A stretch of 64,000 bases of DNA from Liolophura sinensis (Eukaryota > Mollusca > Polyplacophora > Chitonida > Chitonidae), in the NCBI RefSeq assembly GCF_032854445.1, contig NC_088304.1, positions 30,945,732 to 31,009,731 of the forward strand, in the 5' to 3' direction. How positions within the stretch are numbered: position 1 is the first letter of the stretch; the number at the start of each line of letters is the position of its first letter. Position numbers and translations under genes: made by a program. The notes beneath the pieces are model-generated. The model did not search any database. It saw nothing but the letters and a program-made list of their open reading frames with translations, and was not told the DNA's origin. This document shows positions 1 through 58,800 of the stretch, piece after piece.

Positions 1-1480
1 TTCTTTAGGGGTACATTGTCACCCTACCCTTACAGAAGCTCTACCTGAAACTATGACCCTACAATTGTTTAACAAGGCCTGTTTCTTTGGGGGTACATTG
101 TCACCCTACCCTTACAGAAGCTCTACCTGAATTTATGCCCCTCTGTTTGTTTAACAAGGCCTGTTTCTTTGGGGGTACATTGTCACCCTACCGTTACAGA
201 AGCTCTACCTGAATTTATGCCCCTCTGTTTGTTTAACAAGGCCTGTTTCTTTGGGGGTACATTGTCAACCTTCCCTAACAGAAGCTCTACCTGAATGTAT
301 GACCCTCTGTTTGTTTAACAAGGCCTGTTTCTTTGGGGGTACATTGTCACCCTACCCTTACAGAAGCTCTACCTGAATTTATGCCCCTCTGTTTGTTTAA
401 CAAGGCCTGTTTCTTTGGGGGTACATTGTCACCCTACCCTTACAGAAGCTCTACCTGAATCTATGACCCTCTGTTTGTTTAACAAGGCCTGTTTCTTTGG
501 GGGTACATTGTCACCCTACCCTTACAGAAGCTCTACCTGAAACTATGCCCCTCTGTTTGTTAGCCTGTTTCTTTGGGGGTACATTGTAACCCTACCCTCA
601 CAGAAGCTCTACCTGAATTTATGCCCCTCTGTTTGTTTAACAAGGCCTGTTTCTTTGGGGGTATATTGTCACCCTAACCTTACAGAAGCTCTACCTGAAT
701 TTATGCCCCTCTGTTTGTTAGCCTGTTTCTTTGGGGGTACATTGTAACCCTACCCTCACAGAAGCTCTACCTGAATTTATGCCCCTCTGTTTGTTTAACA
801 AGGCCTGTTTCTTTGGGGGTACATTGTCACCCTACCCTTACAGAAGCTCTACCTGAATGTATGCCCCTCTGTTTGTTTAACAAGGCCTGTTTCTTTTGGG
901 GTACATTGTCACCCTACCCTTACAGAAGCTCTACCTGAATCTATGCCCCTCTGTTTGTTTAACAAGGCCAGTTTCTTTGGGGGTACATTGTCACCCTACC
1001 CTTACAGAAGCTCTACCTGAATCTATGACCCTCTGTTTGTTTAACAAGGCCTGTTTCTTTGAGGGTACATTGTCACCCTACCCTTACAGAAGCTCTACCT
1101 GAATTTATGCCCCTCTGTTTGTTTAACAAGGCCTGTTTCTTTGGGGGTATATTGTCACCCTATCCTTACAGAAGCTCTACCTGAATTTGTGCCCCTCTGT
1201 TTGTTTAACAAGGCCTGTTTCTTTGGGGGTACATTGTCACCCTACCCTTACAGAAGCTCTACCTGAATCTATGACCCTCTGTTTGTTTAACAAGGCCTGT
1301 TTCTTTGGGGGTACATTATCACCCTACCCTTACAGAAGCTCTACCTGAAACTATGACCCTACGATTGTTTAACAAGGCCTGTTTCTTTGGGGGGTACATT
1401 GTCACCCTACCCTTACAGAAGCATTACCTGAATCTATGCCCCTCTGTTTGTTTAACAAGGCCTGTTTCTCTGGGGGTATA
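1..1480 (-). repeat. 82 bp tandem array derived from PES1 exon 13 and its splice donor
   Basis: About 18 head-to-tail copies of an 82 bp unit; several are slightly shorter through a small deletion at the GTTTGTTAGCC variant. On the minus strand each unit reads like the end of the last visible PES1 exon ([13 protein letters not shown]) followed by TCAG|GTAGAGC, an intact-looking 5' splice site. The rightmost unit overlaps the genuine exon end (donor at 1427, GTAATG). Because 82 is not a multiple of three, successive units change frame and no long protein results. Reading through the real donor gives a stop at 1402-1404. The array lies in the intron after exon 13. Confidence 0.93.
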
Positions 1481-4400
1481 TAGTCACCCTCCTCTTCTTC
1501 CACAAAGGGGGACAGGTGAGGTGGCAGTACCACCCCCGGGAAGTACTCCTCTACCGGAGCCAGAGATCTTGCATTCACGGAGTCAAACACCCACTGTGGC
1601 TGAATGTAATACCTGCAAATGTACCACAAGTACATGTGACACTATGTTATCATTGTCTACTACAGGCCAACATGCTGTAAATGTGTGTTTGTGATAAGCC
1701 AGTACAAAGCATTCATATCACAAAGCAGTCCTATCAAAAAGCAGTCTCCTCCTGGTTTAATTTATAGTGCTACCTCACTGAAAGTACTGTGGCAGGAGGC
1801 GATTGGCTAGTATTTTCATTATACATACCTGTAACCGTATGGAGCCTCATGCTGAATGTTATACACATTTCAACAAAGCCACCACTTGTGAGCCTCTTTA
1901 CTCTCTCCACTGTGAACCTTTGCATAGCTTCGAAGTAAGTTTCTACAAAACTGCTTACTTGTATATAAAATGCTTTTAGGCACTGTTGCTAAATATATTT
2001 AAGTATATCTAGAGCGATTATGACATTGTAATTTGCTGTCGTTTAGCAGACAGAAATTTCTCAAGGTGAATATCTACATCCCTATTTATGGATATCTGCC
2101 ATGTTTTTAGTGAACTTCATTTACCACCAGTTATGAAGTCGAAACCATGAAATTAGTTAATGTCAGGAAATATAACTTACTTTCCACAGGTTTTACTTAT
2201 CCGCACAACTCTAGTATAGGTTTTACTTATCTGCACAACTCTAGTATAGGTTTTACTTATCTGCACAACTCTAGTATAGGTTTTACTTATCTGCACAACT
2301 CTAGTACAGTTTTTACTTACCTGCACAACTCTAGTACAGGTTTTACTTATCTGCACAACTCTAGTATAGGTTTTACTTACCCGCACAACTCTAGTACAGG
2401 TTTTACTTATCTGCACAACTCTAGTATAGGTTTTACTTATCCGCACAACTCTAGTATAGGTTTTACTTATCTGCACAACTCTAGTATATGTTTTACTTAT
2501 CTGCACAACTCTAGTATAGGTTTTACTTATCTGCACAACTCTAGTATAGGTTTTACTTATCTGCACAACTCTAGTATAGGTTTTACTTACCCGCACAACT
2601 CTAGTACAGGTTTTTCTTACCTGCACAACTCTAGTACAGGTTTTACTTATCTGCACTACTCTAGTATAGGTTTTACTTATCTGCACAACTCTAGTATAGG
2701 TTTTACTTATCCGCACAACTGTAGTATATGTTTTACTTATCTGCACAACTCTAGTACAGGTTTTACTTATCTGCACAACTCTAGTATAGGTTTTACTTAT
2801 CTGCACAACTCTAGTATAGGTTTTACTTATCCGCACAACTCTAGTATATGTTTTACTTATCTGCACAACTCTAGTACAGGTTTTACTTATCTGCACAACT
2901 CTAGTACAGGTTTTACTTATCTGCACAACTCTAGTATAGGATTTACTTATCTGCAGTCGTAAATTTCCTTCTGTAATCTCTTTTAATGCACTATTTTGAC
3001 GAACATTTCTACCTTCAGCATTTCCCTTGCCATCTTGTCTGCTATCATACATTTCATTCCTCCAATTTTGGAGAACTCCCACTGTAAATCTATGTGGCTT
3101 CATACGATAAATTCTACATCTGTCAACCCTATATAATAACAGAGGGTCTTTGTAGGGTGAACTTTGAAAGATGTGAAGAGTTTTTCTGTGTCAAATTAAA
3201 CTTTACAGAAACTTGTCAGGTTGTAATATTAACACCATGTTGATCTCATGAGTACAGGACTGTCTACATTTGTGTTGTAACAGTGAGAAGCCCCGCTGAA
3301 AGATTAAACACCGGTCACTAACATAACCACTGCTGTATAAGTGCTGCAATCCAGCCTACTCCAGCCCTACAGACCAATACACATTATTATTATAACATTA
3401 TATTAACTGATAACCAAATATAACCATCCATACCACGGCCCAGTTTTTTAAAAGTGGATTAACTAATACTGGTATTAAGTCATATTTTATATTTAAAATT
3501 TTGGCCAAACTCAGTTTTCCTGTTTTTTAGTTCACATTTAATACACTTTTTTTTAAGGCTAAGTGTAAAATTGAAAACTTGACTTAAAGTTAAATCTAGT
3601 ATTAAAATCTTAAACCAGTTTTGAACAACTGGTTCCAGCCCTTTAAGTGAGTCAGTGAGTTCTTAGGGTATAATGTCATACTTTTTTCAGTCATATGATG
3701 ACAAAGGAGTCCCTAGAGTGCATGTAATGTGCCTCCTTGTCGCAGGACGGTTTTCTACCGCTCTTTTATCTAGTGCTGCTTCACTGAGACAACTTACCGA
3801 AGACAAGTAAGCCGCCCCACTCAAGCCATTATAAGGATACAGGTCAACCAGTCATTGTATGATTCCCTTAATGTTGAAAGCCAAGTCAATGAAGCTACAA
3901 CTTCCTCTTTTAAGGCGTTAGGTGTGACCTGATCCAGGATTGACCGTGGATATATGATCTCAAAGCGGGCGATCTACCAAAGGAGCCATCGGGGCTGGTA
4001 CCAGCCCATTACTACCTTAGAGTTATGAACACCCATGTCTGCAAGTGTCACACATCGCAAGTGTCACACATCGCAAGTGTCACGCATCACAAGTGTCACA
4101 CATCACAAGTGTCACACATCACAATGTGCCACACATCACAAGTGTCACACATCACAAGTGTCACACACCACAAGTGTCACACATCACAATGTGCCACACA
4201 TCACAAGTGTCACATATCACAAGTGTCACACATCACAAGTGTCACACATCACAAGTGTCACACATCGCAGGTGTCACACATCACAATGTGCCACAGTGAT
4301 GTTATAACCTTTCAATAAATCCAATTACCTGTACCTTCACTCTTTTGCCCCTTTTGCCTTAAAACGTGCCAGAACTATATGATTTTAACACTTCAAAATA

Positions 4401-40837: not shown

Positions 40838-43800
40838 ATGACAATGGGCAAATCGTACAACATGAACACTGCTGGTCGCGGTGACTTTATGCCGTGTCCA
40901 GACTCCAAACTGGACATAGAGAAAACCCCCGAGGCTGAGGGTGGGGGGAGTGAAGCTCTGCAGGAAGAACGCCCCAAGTGGTCCAAAAAGATAGACTTTG
41001 TGCTGGTGTGCGTGGGTTATGCTGTGGGCCTGGGTAACATCTGGAGGTTCCCGTATCTGTGCCACAAAAGTGGGGGAGGTAAGCGCAGGAGTATACATGG
41101 AGCTATAAGATTTATCATCTGTGATCATTGGTGATTATTTGTTCAGCCCTTTAGTGTTTGCTTTGATTTTGGTTTTTTTCTTTTTTATACTTTTTTAAGC
41201 TTCATGGTTGGCAAATTTATCAAGCTGCATGCTCATTTTATTAGAATATCTTTTATGTGCACATATAGTGAACTCAAGCACTACCCTTTTTTACCCATCT
41301 CAATCTTTTTTGATCAATCACTAACTCATTTTAACCCATTTTAGCCATTTTAACCAGGTGAATGCCAGCCTTCATTTAAAATCCACCTCATTTGCTTTTG
41401 TACTATGTTTAAGCGCCAAACTTCATGGATTTCAGATGGGAAATCGTCAAAAAACATGTACTGGTATTGAGAACAGCTGTTTTTAAGATTAATTAAAATG
41501 AAGAACAGAAAAGAATTATTTAAATTACTGTGTATATGCAAGCTTTAGTTGACTATAATTTAATGATTTTAAAAAGCCTGAAAGCGGTGTATATTTGAAT
41601 ATAGATCAACTCTGATCCAGTGTAAAAACTGAGGTTTGTTTCTCAGTTTGAATAATGATTGAGTCTTTGAATAATGATTGCGTCTTCTTCATTTGTAAAT
41701 CCCTTGAAAAACCTGAATTGAATTTAATTCTGTTTTACAGACGGATATTTTAGAGACATAAATGCATATGTTAAATGTAAATTTTCAGCATTCATTTCAT
41801 GCAAGTCTATCCCATTTAATGGGTGAAATTTAACGGAATGAATTAATTCTTGCATGTAATTGCATGCCTGACAGCAGCTCATCAAGCCACATACTTATAC
41901 ATATGATTGAGGTACTAGTTTATAGTTGAATGGTGTCATTCCCATGTGATTTAGAGTTGCTATACCCAATTAGAGACATCTTACATTGACATGATTGAGG
42001 TACCAGTTTATAGTTGAATGGTGTCATTCCCATGTGATTTAGAGTTGCTATTCCCAATTAGAGACATCTTACCTTGACATGATTGAGGTACTAGTTTATA
42101 GTTGAATGGTGTCATTCCCATGTGGCCAGAGTTGCTATTCCCAATTAGAGACATCTTACATTGACATGATTGAGGTACCAGTTTATAGTTGATTGGTGTC
42201 ATTCTCATGTGGTCAGAGTTGCTATACCCAATTAGAGACATCTTAACTTGACATGATTGAGGTACCAGTTTATAGTTGAATGGTGTCATTCTCATGTGGT
42301 CAGAGTTGCTATACCCAATTAGAGACATCTGACCTTGACATGATTGAGGTACTAGTTTACAGTTGAATGTATCATTCCCATGTGATTAGAGTTGCTATAC
42401 CCAGTTAGAGACATCTTACATTGACATGATTGAGGTACCAGTTTATAGTTGAATGGTGTCATTCCCACGTGGTCAGAGTTGCTATACCCAGTTAGAGACA
42501 TCTTACCTTGACATGATTGAGGTACCAGTTTATAGTTGAATGGTGTCATTCCCTTGTGGCCAGAGTTGCTATTCCCAATTAGAGACATCTTACATTGACA
42601 TGATTGAGGTACCAGTTTATAGTTGATTGGTGTCATTCTCATGTGGTCAGAGTTGCTATACCCAATTAGAGACATCTTAACTTGACATGATTGAGGTACC
42701 AGTTTATAGTTGAATGGTGTCATTCTCATGTGGTCAGAGTTGCTATACCCAATTAGAGACATCTGACCTTGACATGATTGAGGTACTAGTTTACAGTTGA
42801 ATGTATCATTCCCATGTGATTAGAGTTGCTATACCCAGTTAGAGACATCTTACCTTGACATGATTGAGGTACCAATTTACAGTTGAATGGTGTCATTCAC
42901 ATGTGATTTAGAGTTGCTATACCCAGTTAGAGACATCTTACATTGACATGATTGAGGTACCAGTTTATAGTTGAATGGTGTCATTCCCATGTGGCCAGAG
43001 TTGCTATTCCCAATTAGAGACATCTTACATTGACATGATTGAGGTACCAGTTTATAATTGATTGGTGTCATTCTCATGTGGTCAGAGTTGCTATTCCCAA
43101 TTAGAGACATCTTAACTTGACATGATTGAGGTACCAGTTTATAGTTGAATGGTGTCATTCTCATGTGGTCAGAGTTGCTATACCCAGTTAGAGACATCTT
43201 ACATTGACATGATTGAGGTACCAGTTTATAGTTGAATGGTGTCATTCCCATGTGGTCAGAGTTGCTATACCCAATTAGAGACATCTGACCTTGACATGAT
43301 TGAGGTACTAGTTTACAGTTGAATGTATCATTCCCATGTGATTAGAGTTGCTATACCCAGTTAGAGACATCTTACCTTGACATGATTGAGGTACCAGTTT
43401 ATAGTTGAATGACTCATTCTCATGTGATCGGAGTTGCTTAATTTCTGTATTTCACGTAAAGTTTAGCGTTCTTCAAGTGACACATTCTTGCTTTATTCTG
43501 ACTTGACTGATTCATTGACCTTAAAAGGCGGTGCAAGATTTTTTTGTGAAGTTAATGTCTTTATAATAGAAAGACTTAACTGTTAACCTTGTATCATTCT
43601 AAAGAATTCATGTGCTTCTGAGAGTGCATTTTTACATGCTAAACTTGAGATAAAATATAGTGTTTTCAGTGCCATTGGCATGTCCATTTTGAGTGCTAGT
43701 GGCATGTCCATTTTGAGTGCCAGTGGCATGTCCATTTTGAGTGCCAGTGGCATGTCCATTTTCAGTGCCAGTGACATGTCCATTTTCATCTGATTTTAAC

Positions 43801-52800: not shown

Positions 52801-55800
52801 AGAATTGCACCACCAAATACCGGGGTCTAAAATCCACAAGTATGAATCCCTGCTTGATCGGTGTACGGCGTTAAACACCAATGAAATAAATAGACATAAC
52901 ACCAATTACATAAATACATGGTCGTACACAGATAGACAAATAATTAATGCCAGCAAAACCATAGGCTATCCTCCTTTGCCGGGGGTAAAAATATTATCTA
53001 TTCACATGTCATTCTCTTCACAGGTTTGGGTCAATGCTGCGGCTCAGAACTTCAATTCCATTGGCATTGCCTTCGGGGGCCTGATTGCAATGTCCAGCTA
53101 CAACCGCTTCAACAACAACATATTCAAGTAAGCTGTGAGGCTAATTGGTTGTTTCACGTCAGTGTATAGGTACATTGACGTGAGTATGTCTCCCTGCAAA
53201 AGTGAAGGCATTAATAAATTTTAGGTTTCTGTGAAATCACATGTAAAGGTGGCTGATATGGATTTATTGGGACCTCCGCGGCCAAGGGAGTTAGCAGACC
53301 AGCACGGCGCAATGATCAACGAGTTTCCCACCAATGCGGTCGTTGTGAGTTCAAGTCCAGTTCGTGATGGCTTCCTCCTTGGATGTACGTGTTAAGGTCT
53401 GCCACCAAACTGCGGAGTGTCATGGGTTTCCCCCGGTTTCCTCCCACATAAAACACCATCAAAGAAATAAATATATGAGCTTATTAAAATTTTTCTCATG
53501 CTTTAAGGGTAGGCTGGGGCTGTTATGACTTGGGTATCTCTGTCAATCATATTTTGATACTACATGTATTTTGTATTTGGGTTTACTTTGTGGAACCTCA
53601 GATCAAGTTTCAAATCCAGCCTAATCCATCCTTATAAATTTTTCAGAATTACTGAATTTAGTTGTTCTCATTGATTCATGGAGCAACTACTCCAAGTGTC
53701 GTGCGATTTTGAAAATTTTGTGCACATTGTCCTTTTTGAGTATTAACCGGACATCAGATTCTAAAACCAGATCATGCATAAGATTTGCATATTTATTAAC
53801 TTCCTTGATTCTGGTTGTGTGTCATCTTCATATATTATCTGATTTCCTGAACACTTTGTGCTCTAGTTCATTCTTGACCTCAGATCAAGTTTGAAAGCGG
53901 ACTTGATCCATTTAGAAGCTTTGCATACTATTTAGCGCGGGGCTTAATTTCTTTTAATTTGCTTGTTGCTCTTGTGCATGCAGGGACGTCCTCACAGTAA
54001 CAGCTATAAACTCAGCTACCAGCCTTTTGGCTGGATTCGTCATTTTCTCCATTTTGGGGCACCTGGCATACAAACAACAGGCAGATGTCACAGATGTTGT
54101 CTCGCAAGGTGAGATGCTACCAATACAGACAAAGTTTCGTTTACCTCTCGGTCAACCAATATTGGCCAAGGGGTATTTTCGTATCTAGCGGCGTGTGTCT
54201 GTCCATATCTCTAGAAGGATTTATGCCATATTCACCAAATTTACACCACACATACACTGTACACTTTGTCTTAAGGAAGAACCCTTTTGTTTCAGCGACC
54301 TTGACCTTTTCCTTCAAAGTCATTGGGTCATTTAAGTTAAATGTTATAAAAGGCTTGTAAACATGCTCTCTCTAGAACAGTTTGGCCGAAGTTCACCAAA
54401 CTTACACCACACTTACACCTTGGTATGAGGGAGAACCCTGTTGATTTTCAGCGACCTTGATCTTTTTCTTCAAGGTCATAGGGGTCATTTAAGTTAAATT
54501 TTATATAAGAGTCTGGAGAGGCAGTCTGAAATAAACAAAAAAGTTGTTATTCTAAAAAGGTATTCTCCTGCTTTGGTTTCACAACCTTCTAAATGCCACC
54601 CGAAGAAGATCTACACATTATTACATACCACCGTTAAGTTGATTCTATTCTTTACATTGTTCGTGTGCTCAAGACTGAGGGTTTTAAGCGCATTGCATGG
54701 TATTTTTTTTCCTTTTATGAGTGCTGTATTTCACCCAAAGTTTGATACATATAAATGCCAAAACTTTTGTCGTTTGAGTTTGTCTGATAATAAATTCATC
54801 CAACTTCACTGAGCACTCTCAGGTGGGCCCGTAAGATTGATAAACTGATCAGAATCTAGTGAAATGTGAATTAGTAATCACAGGACAAAACTTTGTATTA
54901 CAAATTTACTGAAAAAAAAGAAATAAAACCTGTCCCAAACTACTGAAGTGTAAATCCCAAAAAGTCTTTAAAGTACTTTTTATCTGTTTTTATTGTGAGT
55001 AAAAGGCATGGTGGATAAGTTTGCGCAAAAATAATTCAAATTCTTTACTGAAATTGCTTAGAAAATGATTCTAAATATTTTCTGAAATTGTTTTCTTTGT
55101 CTGCTGATACAACATGTATCAAAGTGAATGTTGTAATAAATGAGACCAATTGAACCATTAGAAAAATAATCCTCATACTTCCTCACTTACAGCGAGATGT
55201 TTTCTGATTGGTTTTAGGTCCTGGGCTGGTGTTCATTATTTACCCAGAAGCCTTTTTGTCCATGCCCATTCCTCAGCTGTTTGCATTCTTGTTCTTCTTC
55301 ATGCTGATCTGTCTGGGCATTGACAGTCAGGTAATGTCTGCTGTACAAGCAACAAAGGAGATCTTCAAACACTGGAAATCCACGGCTTTCAGTGTCACCC
55401 AAATAAGTGTATTTCTGTTTCTGTATTTGATTCTGGTATTTGGTTGGTGTTTATTAATGCTGTACTCGAGTGCAGTGTGAAAGTCAATCTTAAAATTACA
55501 GTTATTGAAAAACCTGCTTTGAGGAGGATAGAAGTTTTCCTTAAAATTGCACTTCATGAAACCTGGACAAGTAGAAATAAAAAAGAGTAAGGACACAAAA
55601 AGCTGATACAAAATGGATAACTGCTATAGATAATTGTGTCTAGTGTGTGCAACCTGAAATAAACCAGCCTTAAATATTGCAGAACTCAGTAATGGACTGT
55701 CAACAGACACATCAAAATTCACAATTCACCTGGCTTCTAAACTTGTTAATCTCCTCTTGGTACCAGAGGTACCTCCCGGTACAAGAGGAGGTCAATCTCC

Positions 55801-58800
55801 TCCCCCGTACCAGAGGAGGTCAGCCTCCTCCTGGTACCAGAGGAGGTCATTCTCCTCGCGACACCAGAGGTGGTCAGCCTCCTCTCCGTACCAGAGGTGG
55901 TCAGTCTCCTCTCCGTACCAGAAGTGGTCATTCTCCTCCCGGTACCAGAGGAGGTCATTCTCCTCCCGATACAAGAGGAGGTCAGTCTCCTCCTGGTACC
56001 AGAGGTGGTGAGTCTCCTCCTGGTACCAGAGGTGGTCAATCTCCTCCCAGCACCAGAGGTCATTTTCCTCTCCATACCAGAGGTGGTCAGTCTCCTCCCG
56101 GTACCAGAGGAGGTCATTCTCCTCCCGATACAAGAGGAGGTCAGTCTCCTCCTGGTACCAGAGGTGGTGAGTCTCCTCCCGGTACCAGAGGTGGTCAATC
56201 TCCTCCCAGCACCAGAGGTCATTTTCCTCTCCATACCAGAGGTGGTCAGTCTCCTCCCGGTACCAGAGGAGGTCAGTCTCCTCCTGGTACCAGAGGAGGT
56301 CAGTCTCCTCCCGGTACCAGAGGAGGTCAATCTCCTCCCGGTACCAGAGGAGGTCAATCTCCTCCCAGCACCAGAGGATAAATTTGCAGGATAAATTCAT
56401 TACATGGTTACTCAAGGATACGATGCGCGAATATATGGTGTCAATAGTTCTCATATTGGTGTCTGTATGGTGTCAAGAATCTTGATATTGGTGTCAATAA
56501 TATGAGGATTATTGACACCATATATTTGCGTATCCTGTCACTGTGTAAACATGTAACTAATGTTGTTCTTCATTTCCTTTCTGCTTTCAGTTTGCATCTG
56601 TTGAAGTTGTCGTCACCACAATCCATGACCACTTTGGAGTTCAGATGAAGAAGTTCTTCAAGCGGAAGGAGTTTAGCATTGCCATCATCTGTCTGGTGTC
56701 ATTCATCTGTGGACTGCCATGTGTCTTTCAGGTAATAAGGGCCACATCAATGAACAATTCTCAATGAAAGATTCTTGTGAAAACAGTTCACAAGAAGTAA
56801 TTTAGAGTAGAAGAACGATGAAGAAAATTGAGGAGGTGAATGTTTGTGAACTTGAGAAGAGGTTTTCTTTTGTGCTTCTGGAAAAGGGTGAGACAGGTGA
56901 TCGGTAAAAGTGAGACAGGTGAACGGTAAAAGTGAGACAGGTGACGGGTAAATTAATGTCAACAAATGTTGCCTAATATTTCAACAACAAAAGAGTTTGA
57001 ACTCAGAATTCCCAAGTTTATTTCTTTATACTTTGATTAGTGTCTTTAGTCAAATACATTGCTGTCATTTAACAATTTAGTTGGTGTAAGCCATGGCCTA
57101 GTGGTCGATATGGTTAATCATCAACCACTAGGATCCACCAGGTGGCGCCTCATTCCTGGCGTCTCATTCCTGGCGCCTCATTCCTGGCGCCTCATTCCTG
57201 GCGTCTGACCTGGAATTTGTTGATCTTCTCCGTCCTTACCTGGCATATTGAATTGTGTTACATTTATTGTAAAATGTTAATCAGTTTATGAGCTGTGTTT
57301 TACCAGTGTGGTGTGTATATAGATCTGTACATCACATGTGGGAAGGTTTGTTTGTAGCTTGCTAGGGGTAGATTGTTTACACTGGGCACACTACATGTTA
57401 TTTCCTCCAACCAAAATATTGACTGCCATGACATCTTGACTGATGTTGACATGCACAAGTTTTTGTTTGCATGTAATTGGTCTGATTTTTTTTTTCAATC
57501 TGAACCAAGTGTTCTTCCTCACAATGCAGTTATAGTTCTTTAAAAATCCAATCTCTAGCTTTTCAGAAGATACATTTATAAATCCTTCCAAAGATTTGCA
57601 GAAGGAGGTATTAAGTCTAAAGGCATTTTTCGTGTGTGGAAACTTTAAACAAAATATGAAATTTTTTTGAAGTCATTGAAGAAAATTTGAAAAAACTTTC
57701 ATCAAAGGAAAGTTAAACATCATTTTAAGGATTGTAGAAATCCAAGTTCAAAAATAGGCTCTATTGTTGCATTTTTATTTTATTTCCATTGAAATCTAAG
57801 TTCAAAAATAATTGTTTTTGTGACATTTTTATTTTATTTTCAGTGAAATCCAAGTTCAAAAATAATTGGTTTTGTGGCATTTCTATGTTATTTTTCAATG
57901 AATTAAAGACAGTCAATTGTTGTAAATGTAAGTCACATTGGCTTTTATGTTCTATTATGTTCACCTGTAAACCAAATGTTTTCTATATTATTATACACAA
58001 AATGAGAAGGATGTTAACATAATTGCCTTAATTTCAGGGAGGGATCTATTATTTTGGACTGATAGATTACTACGCCGCTGCCTTATCACTCATGTACTTG
58101 GCCTTTTTTGAGGTCATCGCAATAACATGGATTTATGGTAATGAATTATTTGCAAAATAATAAAGTCAGTGTGTGATGAGAAAAAGCAAACATGAAATGA
58201 AGTTCCTCAAATGGTTTTTTCTTATTCCTTCAGCTTATTATGGTTGTAATGGCAGTATGATTCACAGCGCTTCACATAATGATTTTGTTTTTGGAATGTA
58301 GGCTTATTTTGATGAGAACGAGGCTGTTTCTGTCAAATATCTGGTCAAATCTTTCCCAACTAAATAGAAATATAAAGTTGGAATGATTTCATCATAATGA
58401 TAGTAACAGTCAATTGTTGAGCTTGTTACGATCAAATTTCTGGTTTTCATTGCCAATTGTTTTGTCAGCCAATGGGAATCTCTTCTTGTTTTAATCACAC
58501 CGTACATATGTGGGTGGGTTTGTCATTATCTACTACTTTGACGGTGTGATGATTTCATAAAGGGTAATGGATAAGACTCCTTGAGAATTTCATCTTGTAA
58601 ATTCGCGTCGTCTTAGGGCACTTCGTCCTAGACGACAGAATCCTTCAAAAATGTTAGGAAAAAAAATAAAGGAAATTTTGTATGCCAGTAATTCAGCTTG
58701 AAGTTAAATATTCACATAATTAAATGTAAAGTATTACATAAATCAGCAAAACATTGAAGTTAGTGTTCTGTTTTACAGGTGCAAAACGGCTGGCTCGAAA

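Follow-up and report, generated by a model that had tools for sequence, protein, structure and literature searches.

Results

Organization of PES1 and of the array at the end of exon 13

The window, by which we mean the whole 64,000-nt stretch of DNA analyzed (contig C10:30945732-31009731), belongs to the 609,464,459-base assembly in 632 pieces that was used for genome searches; the chiton concerned has since been renamed Liolophura sinensis by the authors of its genome (PMC12441733). PES1 is encoded on the minus strand, where exons 2-17, with GT-AG borders, join into a single, stop-terminated open frame of 1,830 nt. The gene model covers exons 2-17, and the number "exon 13" assumes one preceding exon because the PES1 fragment begins at human residue 9. 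The chiton coding sequence matched human Pescadillo (8fkp) with an E value of 3.1e-197, and the Pfam matches of its protein were Pescadillo_N, BRCT_2, and BRCT. A second PES1 locus was ruled out, as the exon 13 protein matched a single place in the genome (E value of 0.001 or better). The features at this locus, all on the minus strand and with exon-intron borders marked by a slash, were as follows:

1428-1612, PES1 exon 13, holding the end of the BRCT region and a conserved tail; the putative founder copy of the repeat is the exon's last 63 nt (gene model and protein match)
1426-1427, the GT of exon 13's own donor, CAG/GTAATG (gene model, donor scoring)
1-1427, 5′ part of PES1 intron 13; the whole intron is 1,979 nt and exon 14 lies at L001 7814-7948 (gene model)
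1-1490, 82-bp tandem array within the window, exon end included, extending to about window -204 (L001 8296; Tandem Repeats Finder)
1402-1404, TGA that read-through from exon 13 meets in frame, ahead of every decoy donor (translation)
44-1344, 17 decoy donors CAG/GTAGAG, with the G of GT at 1344, 1262, 1180, 1098, 1016, 934, 852, 770, 694, 612, 536, 454, 372, 290, 208, 126, and 44 (donor listing)
Beyond the window, three further decoy donors at -38 (GTAGAG), -120 (GTAAGG), and -202 (GTAAGA; donor listing)

The repeat unit of 82 bp consists of the last 63 bases of exon 13 and the first 19 of the intron, splice donor included, and this bears out the original prediction that the array derives from the end of that exon and its donor. 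Run on the window alone, Tandem Repeats Finder reported an array at 1-1490 with a period of 82, 18.3 copies, and 93% matches; with flanking DNA included, 20.8 copies with 92% matches were found (L001 8296-9990, or window about -204 to 1490). The locus thus holds head-to-tail units of tens of bases at high identity, as a minisatellite does. The array begins 63 nt upstream of the end of exon 13, fills ~82% of intron 13, and is cut by the window edge, the full donor-anchored count being 21 copies with the exon end. The extent and donor series first described were accurate within the window, but the array runs past its edge, and the last two units, with their strong donors, had been missed.

The copied 63-base segment encodes protein residues that are also present in human PES1 (human counterpart GDYVPPEKLKLLALQRGEDP), and it is therefore the array that was copied from the exon. 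All 21 genomic DNA matches to the unit, query included, fell within this array, in a search that skips very common words. Compared with the interior consensus, the exon copy differed at 6 of 82 sites, a similarity far beyond chance, the second-last unit at 10 of 82, and the last at 22 of 82. The 18 interior copies held 45 substitutions among 1,476 cells, and two 76-bp units had one deletion in common. Few substitutions in the interior, together with two diverged units at the end, are what is expected of an array homogenized in its middle. This pattern also bears on whether the repeat was collapsed or expanded during assembly, which we regard as very improbable. There is a single assembly, made from 14x HiFi data, but the mean HiFi read is given as 8,347 bp (PMC11068029), against an array of 1.7 kb, and both the private variants within units and the diverged distal copies speak against an artefact.

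Variable columns were distributed as 5, 7, and 4 over codon positions 1, 2, and 3 (21 columns each). Since this shows no third-position bias, the evolution of the copies is not that of coding sequence, and coding constraint on them was ruled out. The longest invariant run (18 columns) spanned the decoy donor, with a permutation P of 0.0096 when the shared deletion was counted and 0.09 when substitutions only were counted; invariance over the decoy donor is thus weakly supported.

Strength and order of the repeated donors

In transcript order, the exon donor CAG/GTAATG is followed by CAG/GTAGAG 18 times, by CAG/GTAAGG, and finally by CAG/GTAAGA, giving 20 extra donors in total. The multiplication of donors that had been predicted was thus confirmed, with 17 CAG/GTAGAG sites in the window and the true GTAATG donor at 1427. 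All 18 interior units retained CAG/GTAGAG. Using a human donor matrix not fitted to the chiton, which affects every bit score given here, we obtained 7.35 bits for the exon donor, 5.05 for the interior GTAGAG, 11.42 for GTAAGG, and 11.0 for GTAAGA. Simple U1 duplex energies were -8.1 kcal/mol for the exon donor, -8.0 for the interior decoys, and -11.5 and -11.0 for the distal pair. The interior decoys were therefore weaker than the true donor by matrix score and about equal to it by U1 energy, whereas the two distal donors, which lie outside the window at intron positions +1547 and +1629, exceeded the exon donor by both measures. Among the 15 PES1 donors scored, that of exon 13 was the third lowest and the distal pair stood at the level of the better ones; a +5 G was missing in four of the 15, exon 13 included. 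By parsimony, the founder donor was probably a GTAAG-type site that persists at the far end of the array, with the exon and interior copies having changed since.

It had been suggested that the decoys act in splicing. One form of this idea is that the GTAGAG decoys compete by their number, so that copy number would tune PES1 isoform or mRNA level. The retention of CAG/GTAGAG in every interior unit and the similar U1 energies of interior and true donors are in keeping with such competition, but the interior decoys fall 2.3 bits below the true donor on the human matrix and the donor invariance has the equivocal P values given above; we consider this reading quite unlikely.

Consequences of reading through the exon 13 donor

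The TGA at 1402-1404 was confirmed to precede all decoys. The nearest decoy junction lies 57 nt past it and the remaining junctions lie farther, the two distal ones at 1,521 and 1,603 nt. In mammals, nonsense-mediated decay usually follows when a stop lies more than 50-55 nt ahead of a junction. As every decoy junction is at least 57 nt past the stop, decay is predicted over a stable truncated protein, and decoy use would be likelier to lead to mRNA decay than to the truncated Pescadillo first envisaged. Joining the 1427 donor to exon 14, on the other hand, keeps the full PES1 frame, with the array sitting between the two exons. This full frame, together with the position of every decoy behind an in-frame stop, was counted in favor of 1427 as the donor that is used.

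These distances and the strong distal donors also define another reading, in which the weak exon donor would sometimes lose to the two distal ones, so that exon 13 is extended with a stop, the mRNA decays, and the PES1 level is set as a result. The scores and U1 energies of the distal pair and the long distances from stop to distal junction would suit such a poison exon. It would, however, have to be 1.7 kb long; the scoring matrix is a human one; and intron 12 likewise has strong pseudo-donors in sequence that lacks homology to PES1 exons. Moreover, according to a review, the first donor of a repeated series in human F7 is normally the only one used (PMC6627357). We judge the poison exon to be unlikely. 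It is similarly doubtful, and somewhat more so, that the repeat itself made exon 13 a poison exon of variable length. With its own donor weak, the interior copies disarmed, and the ancestral strong donors preserved at the far end, such an exon would divert part of the PES1 pre-mRNA to decay in proportion to the state of the array.

Donors and minisatellites elsewhere in PES1 and in the genome

Eight pseudo-donors in intron 12 scored at least as high as its true donor, one of them a perfect CAG/GTAAGT at 2320. Strong intronic donors are therefore not special to the exon-derived array. A 30-bp array occupies window positions 2188-2955 of this intron, and a few of its sense-strand units have strong donors, including the one at 2320; no match was found between this array and PES1 exons 2-17. 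Over 14 PES1 introns (intron 15 excluded), 16 sense-strand sites reached 8 bits or more, vs. 18 in a reversed control, of which 13 fell in intron 10. One of the eight arrays in PES1 introns matched a PES1 exon when exons 2-17 were compared, and an exon origin among these exons was rejected for the other seven.

Minisatellites are common in this genome: 16 sampled 10-kb pieces, taken at round coordinates, contained 25 arrays covering about 11 kb, with at least one in 12 of the 16. In the window, 16 tandem arrays (period of at least 15, at least 2.8 copies) covered about 10.3 kb, or 16%, vs. about 7% in the sampled pieces. The window also has a 27-bp repeat at 55772-56377 whose unit translates as PPGTRGGQS, a possible coding repeat, and an 87-bp array at 41903-43438 (434-bp higher order) whose consensus has a donor-like AAG/GTAAGA on the minus strand.

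We also considered whether minisatellites of this genome favor the donor word CAGGTAAG. Triples at 30-58 nt spacing numbered 1,208 for CAGGTAAG, 330 for its backwards form GAATGGAC, 99 for GATGCAAG, and 34 for the backwards form of the latter, GAACGTAG. The single words occurred 30,137, 14,616, 13,436, and 4,971 times, respectively, so that word frequency accounts for part of the excess of CAGGTAAG triples; per 100 words, triples came to 4.0, 2.3, 0.74, and 0.68, with CAGGTAAG still the highest. Array families with 38-44 nt spacing, counted by eye over the region from C1 to C3:23.27 Mb, numbered at least 10 for CAGGTAAG (among the matches listed, 100 of 310 places), 7 for GAATGGAC, and 3 for GATGCAAG. 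Per 10,000 words these correspond to at least 3.3, 4.8, and 2.2, which places CAGGTAAG between the two controls among the matches listed. A large array of ~54-bp units, many with CAGGTAAG, was seen at C1:1375435-1381670. Forty arrays were then sampled from 232.5 kb (44 less four that scored below 100). Donors of at least 8, 9, and 10 bits were present in 4, 3, and 2 units, vs. 4, 2, and 1 reversed units and 4.5, 2.4, and 1.2 expected from dinucleotide shuffling. A preference for the donor consensus was rejected, as the array counts fell between those of the control words and the sampled arrays showed none. Since neither approach revealed enrichment, the excess of CAGGTAAG triples may be due to a small number of large arrays. 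A clear genome-wide excess of donor-bearing arrays was thus not upheld, and a modest enrichment may exist.

Discussion

The array in PES1 intron 13 is, with good confidence, an exon-seeded intronic minisatellite in which the 1427 donor would be the one mainly used, the array being removed as intron and most decoys staying idle. We infer, from the sequence, both this donor choice and the following history. A tandem duplication across the boundary of exon 13 and intron 13, comprising 63 exon and 19 intron bases, would have started the array, and slippage and unequal exchange would then have produced about 20 intronic copies evolving without coding constraint. The spliceosome would mainly take the first donor, so that the whole array is spliced out and most decoys, being weak, are idle. 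On this account the array is most likely neutral or harmless. Counted against neutrality were the weak exon donor with its two stronger distal competitors, the failure of U1 energy to separate the true donor from interior decoys, and the longest invariant run covering the decoy donor.

A known counterpart is intron 7 of human F7, where, according to a review (PMC6627357), 37-bp repeats have the exon donor in the first of a near-identical row and cryptic donors downstream. In cell models, a change at +5 led to exon skipping and to use of the downstream cryptic donors (PMC6627357). Compared by description, the chiton array is alike in that its first unit, the end of exon 13, holds the exon's own donor and 20 CAG/GTA sites follow it. 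It differs in its 82-bp unit, its roughly 20 copies, and the gene and animal concerned; moreover, the chiton exon donor naturally lacks the +5 G, most decoys score lower than it, and two distal ones score higher. By this analogy, the array is of a kind already known from human F7, its anatomy being comparable and its scale larger. The normal preference for the most upstream F7 donor and the lower score of the interior decoys both weigh against decoy action in splicing. Control of PES1 isoform or mRNA level by copy number, also put forward in the original prediction, was not borne out either, given the weakly supported invariance over the decoy donor, the lack of third-position bias, and the lack of a clear excess of donor-bearing arrays.

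In the potato RdRp gene, an intron is reported to have been gained by tandem duplication (PMC4974935). Like that event, as described there, the proposed chiton duplication spans the border of an exon and an intron and reproduces splice signals; unlike there, the chiton copies sit within an intron that conserved exons flank, and no new intron is seen. Nothing splitting exon 13 was found, and the frame continues from exon 13 into exon 14, with the array lying between the two.

Ordinary intronic minisatellites have comparable unit lengths, tandem order, a homogenized middle, and a diverged end. The chiton array resembles them in all four respects and differs in that its founder unit has coding sequence and a real donor. 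No minisatellites or VNTRs with splice donors were apparent in the literature titles and abstract openings listed, which does not imply their absence from print.

Were the reading of a variable-length poison exon true, a fast-mutating repeat would be linked to ribosome production. The locus offers a natural series of about twenty near-identical donors that follow a single exon of a gene for ribosome biogenesis, and with it a ready test, outside mammals, of which 5′ splice site the spliceosome prefers, the first or the strongest.
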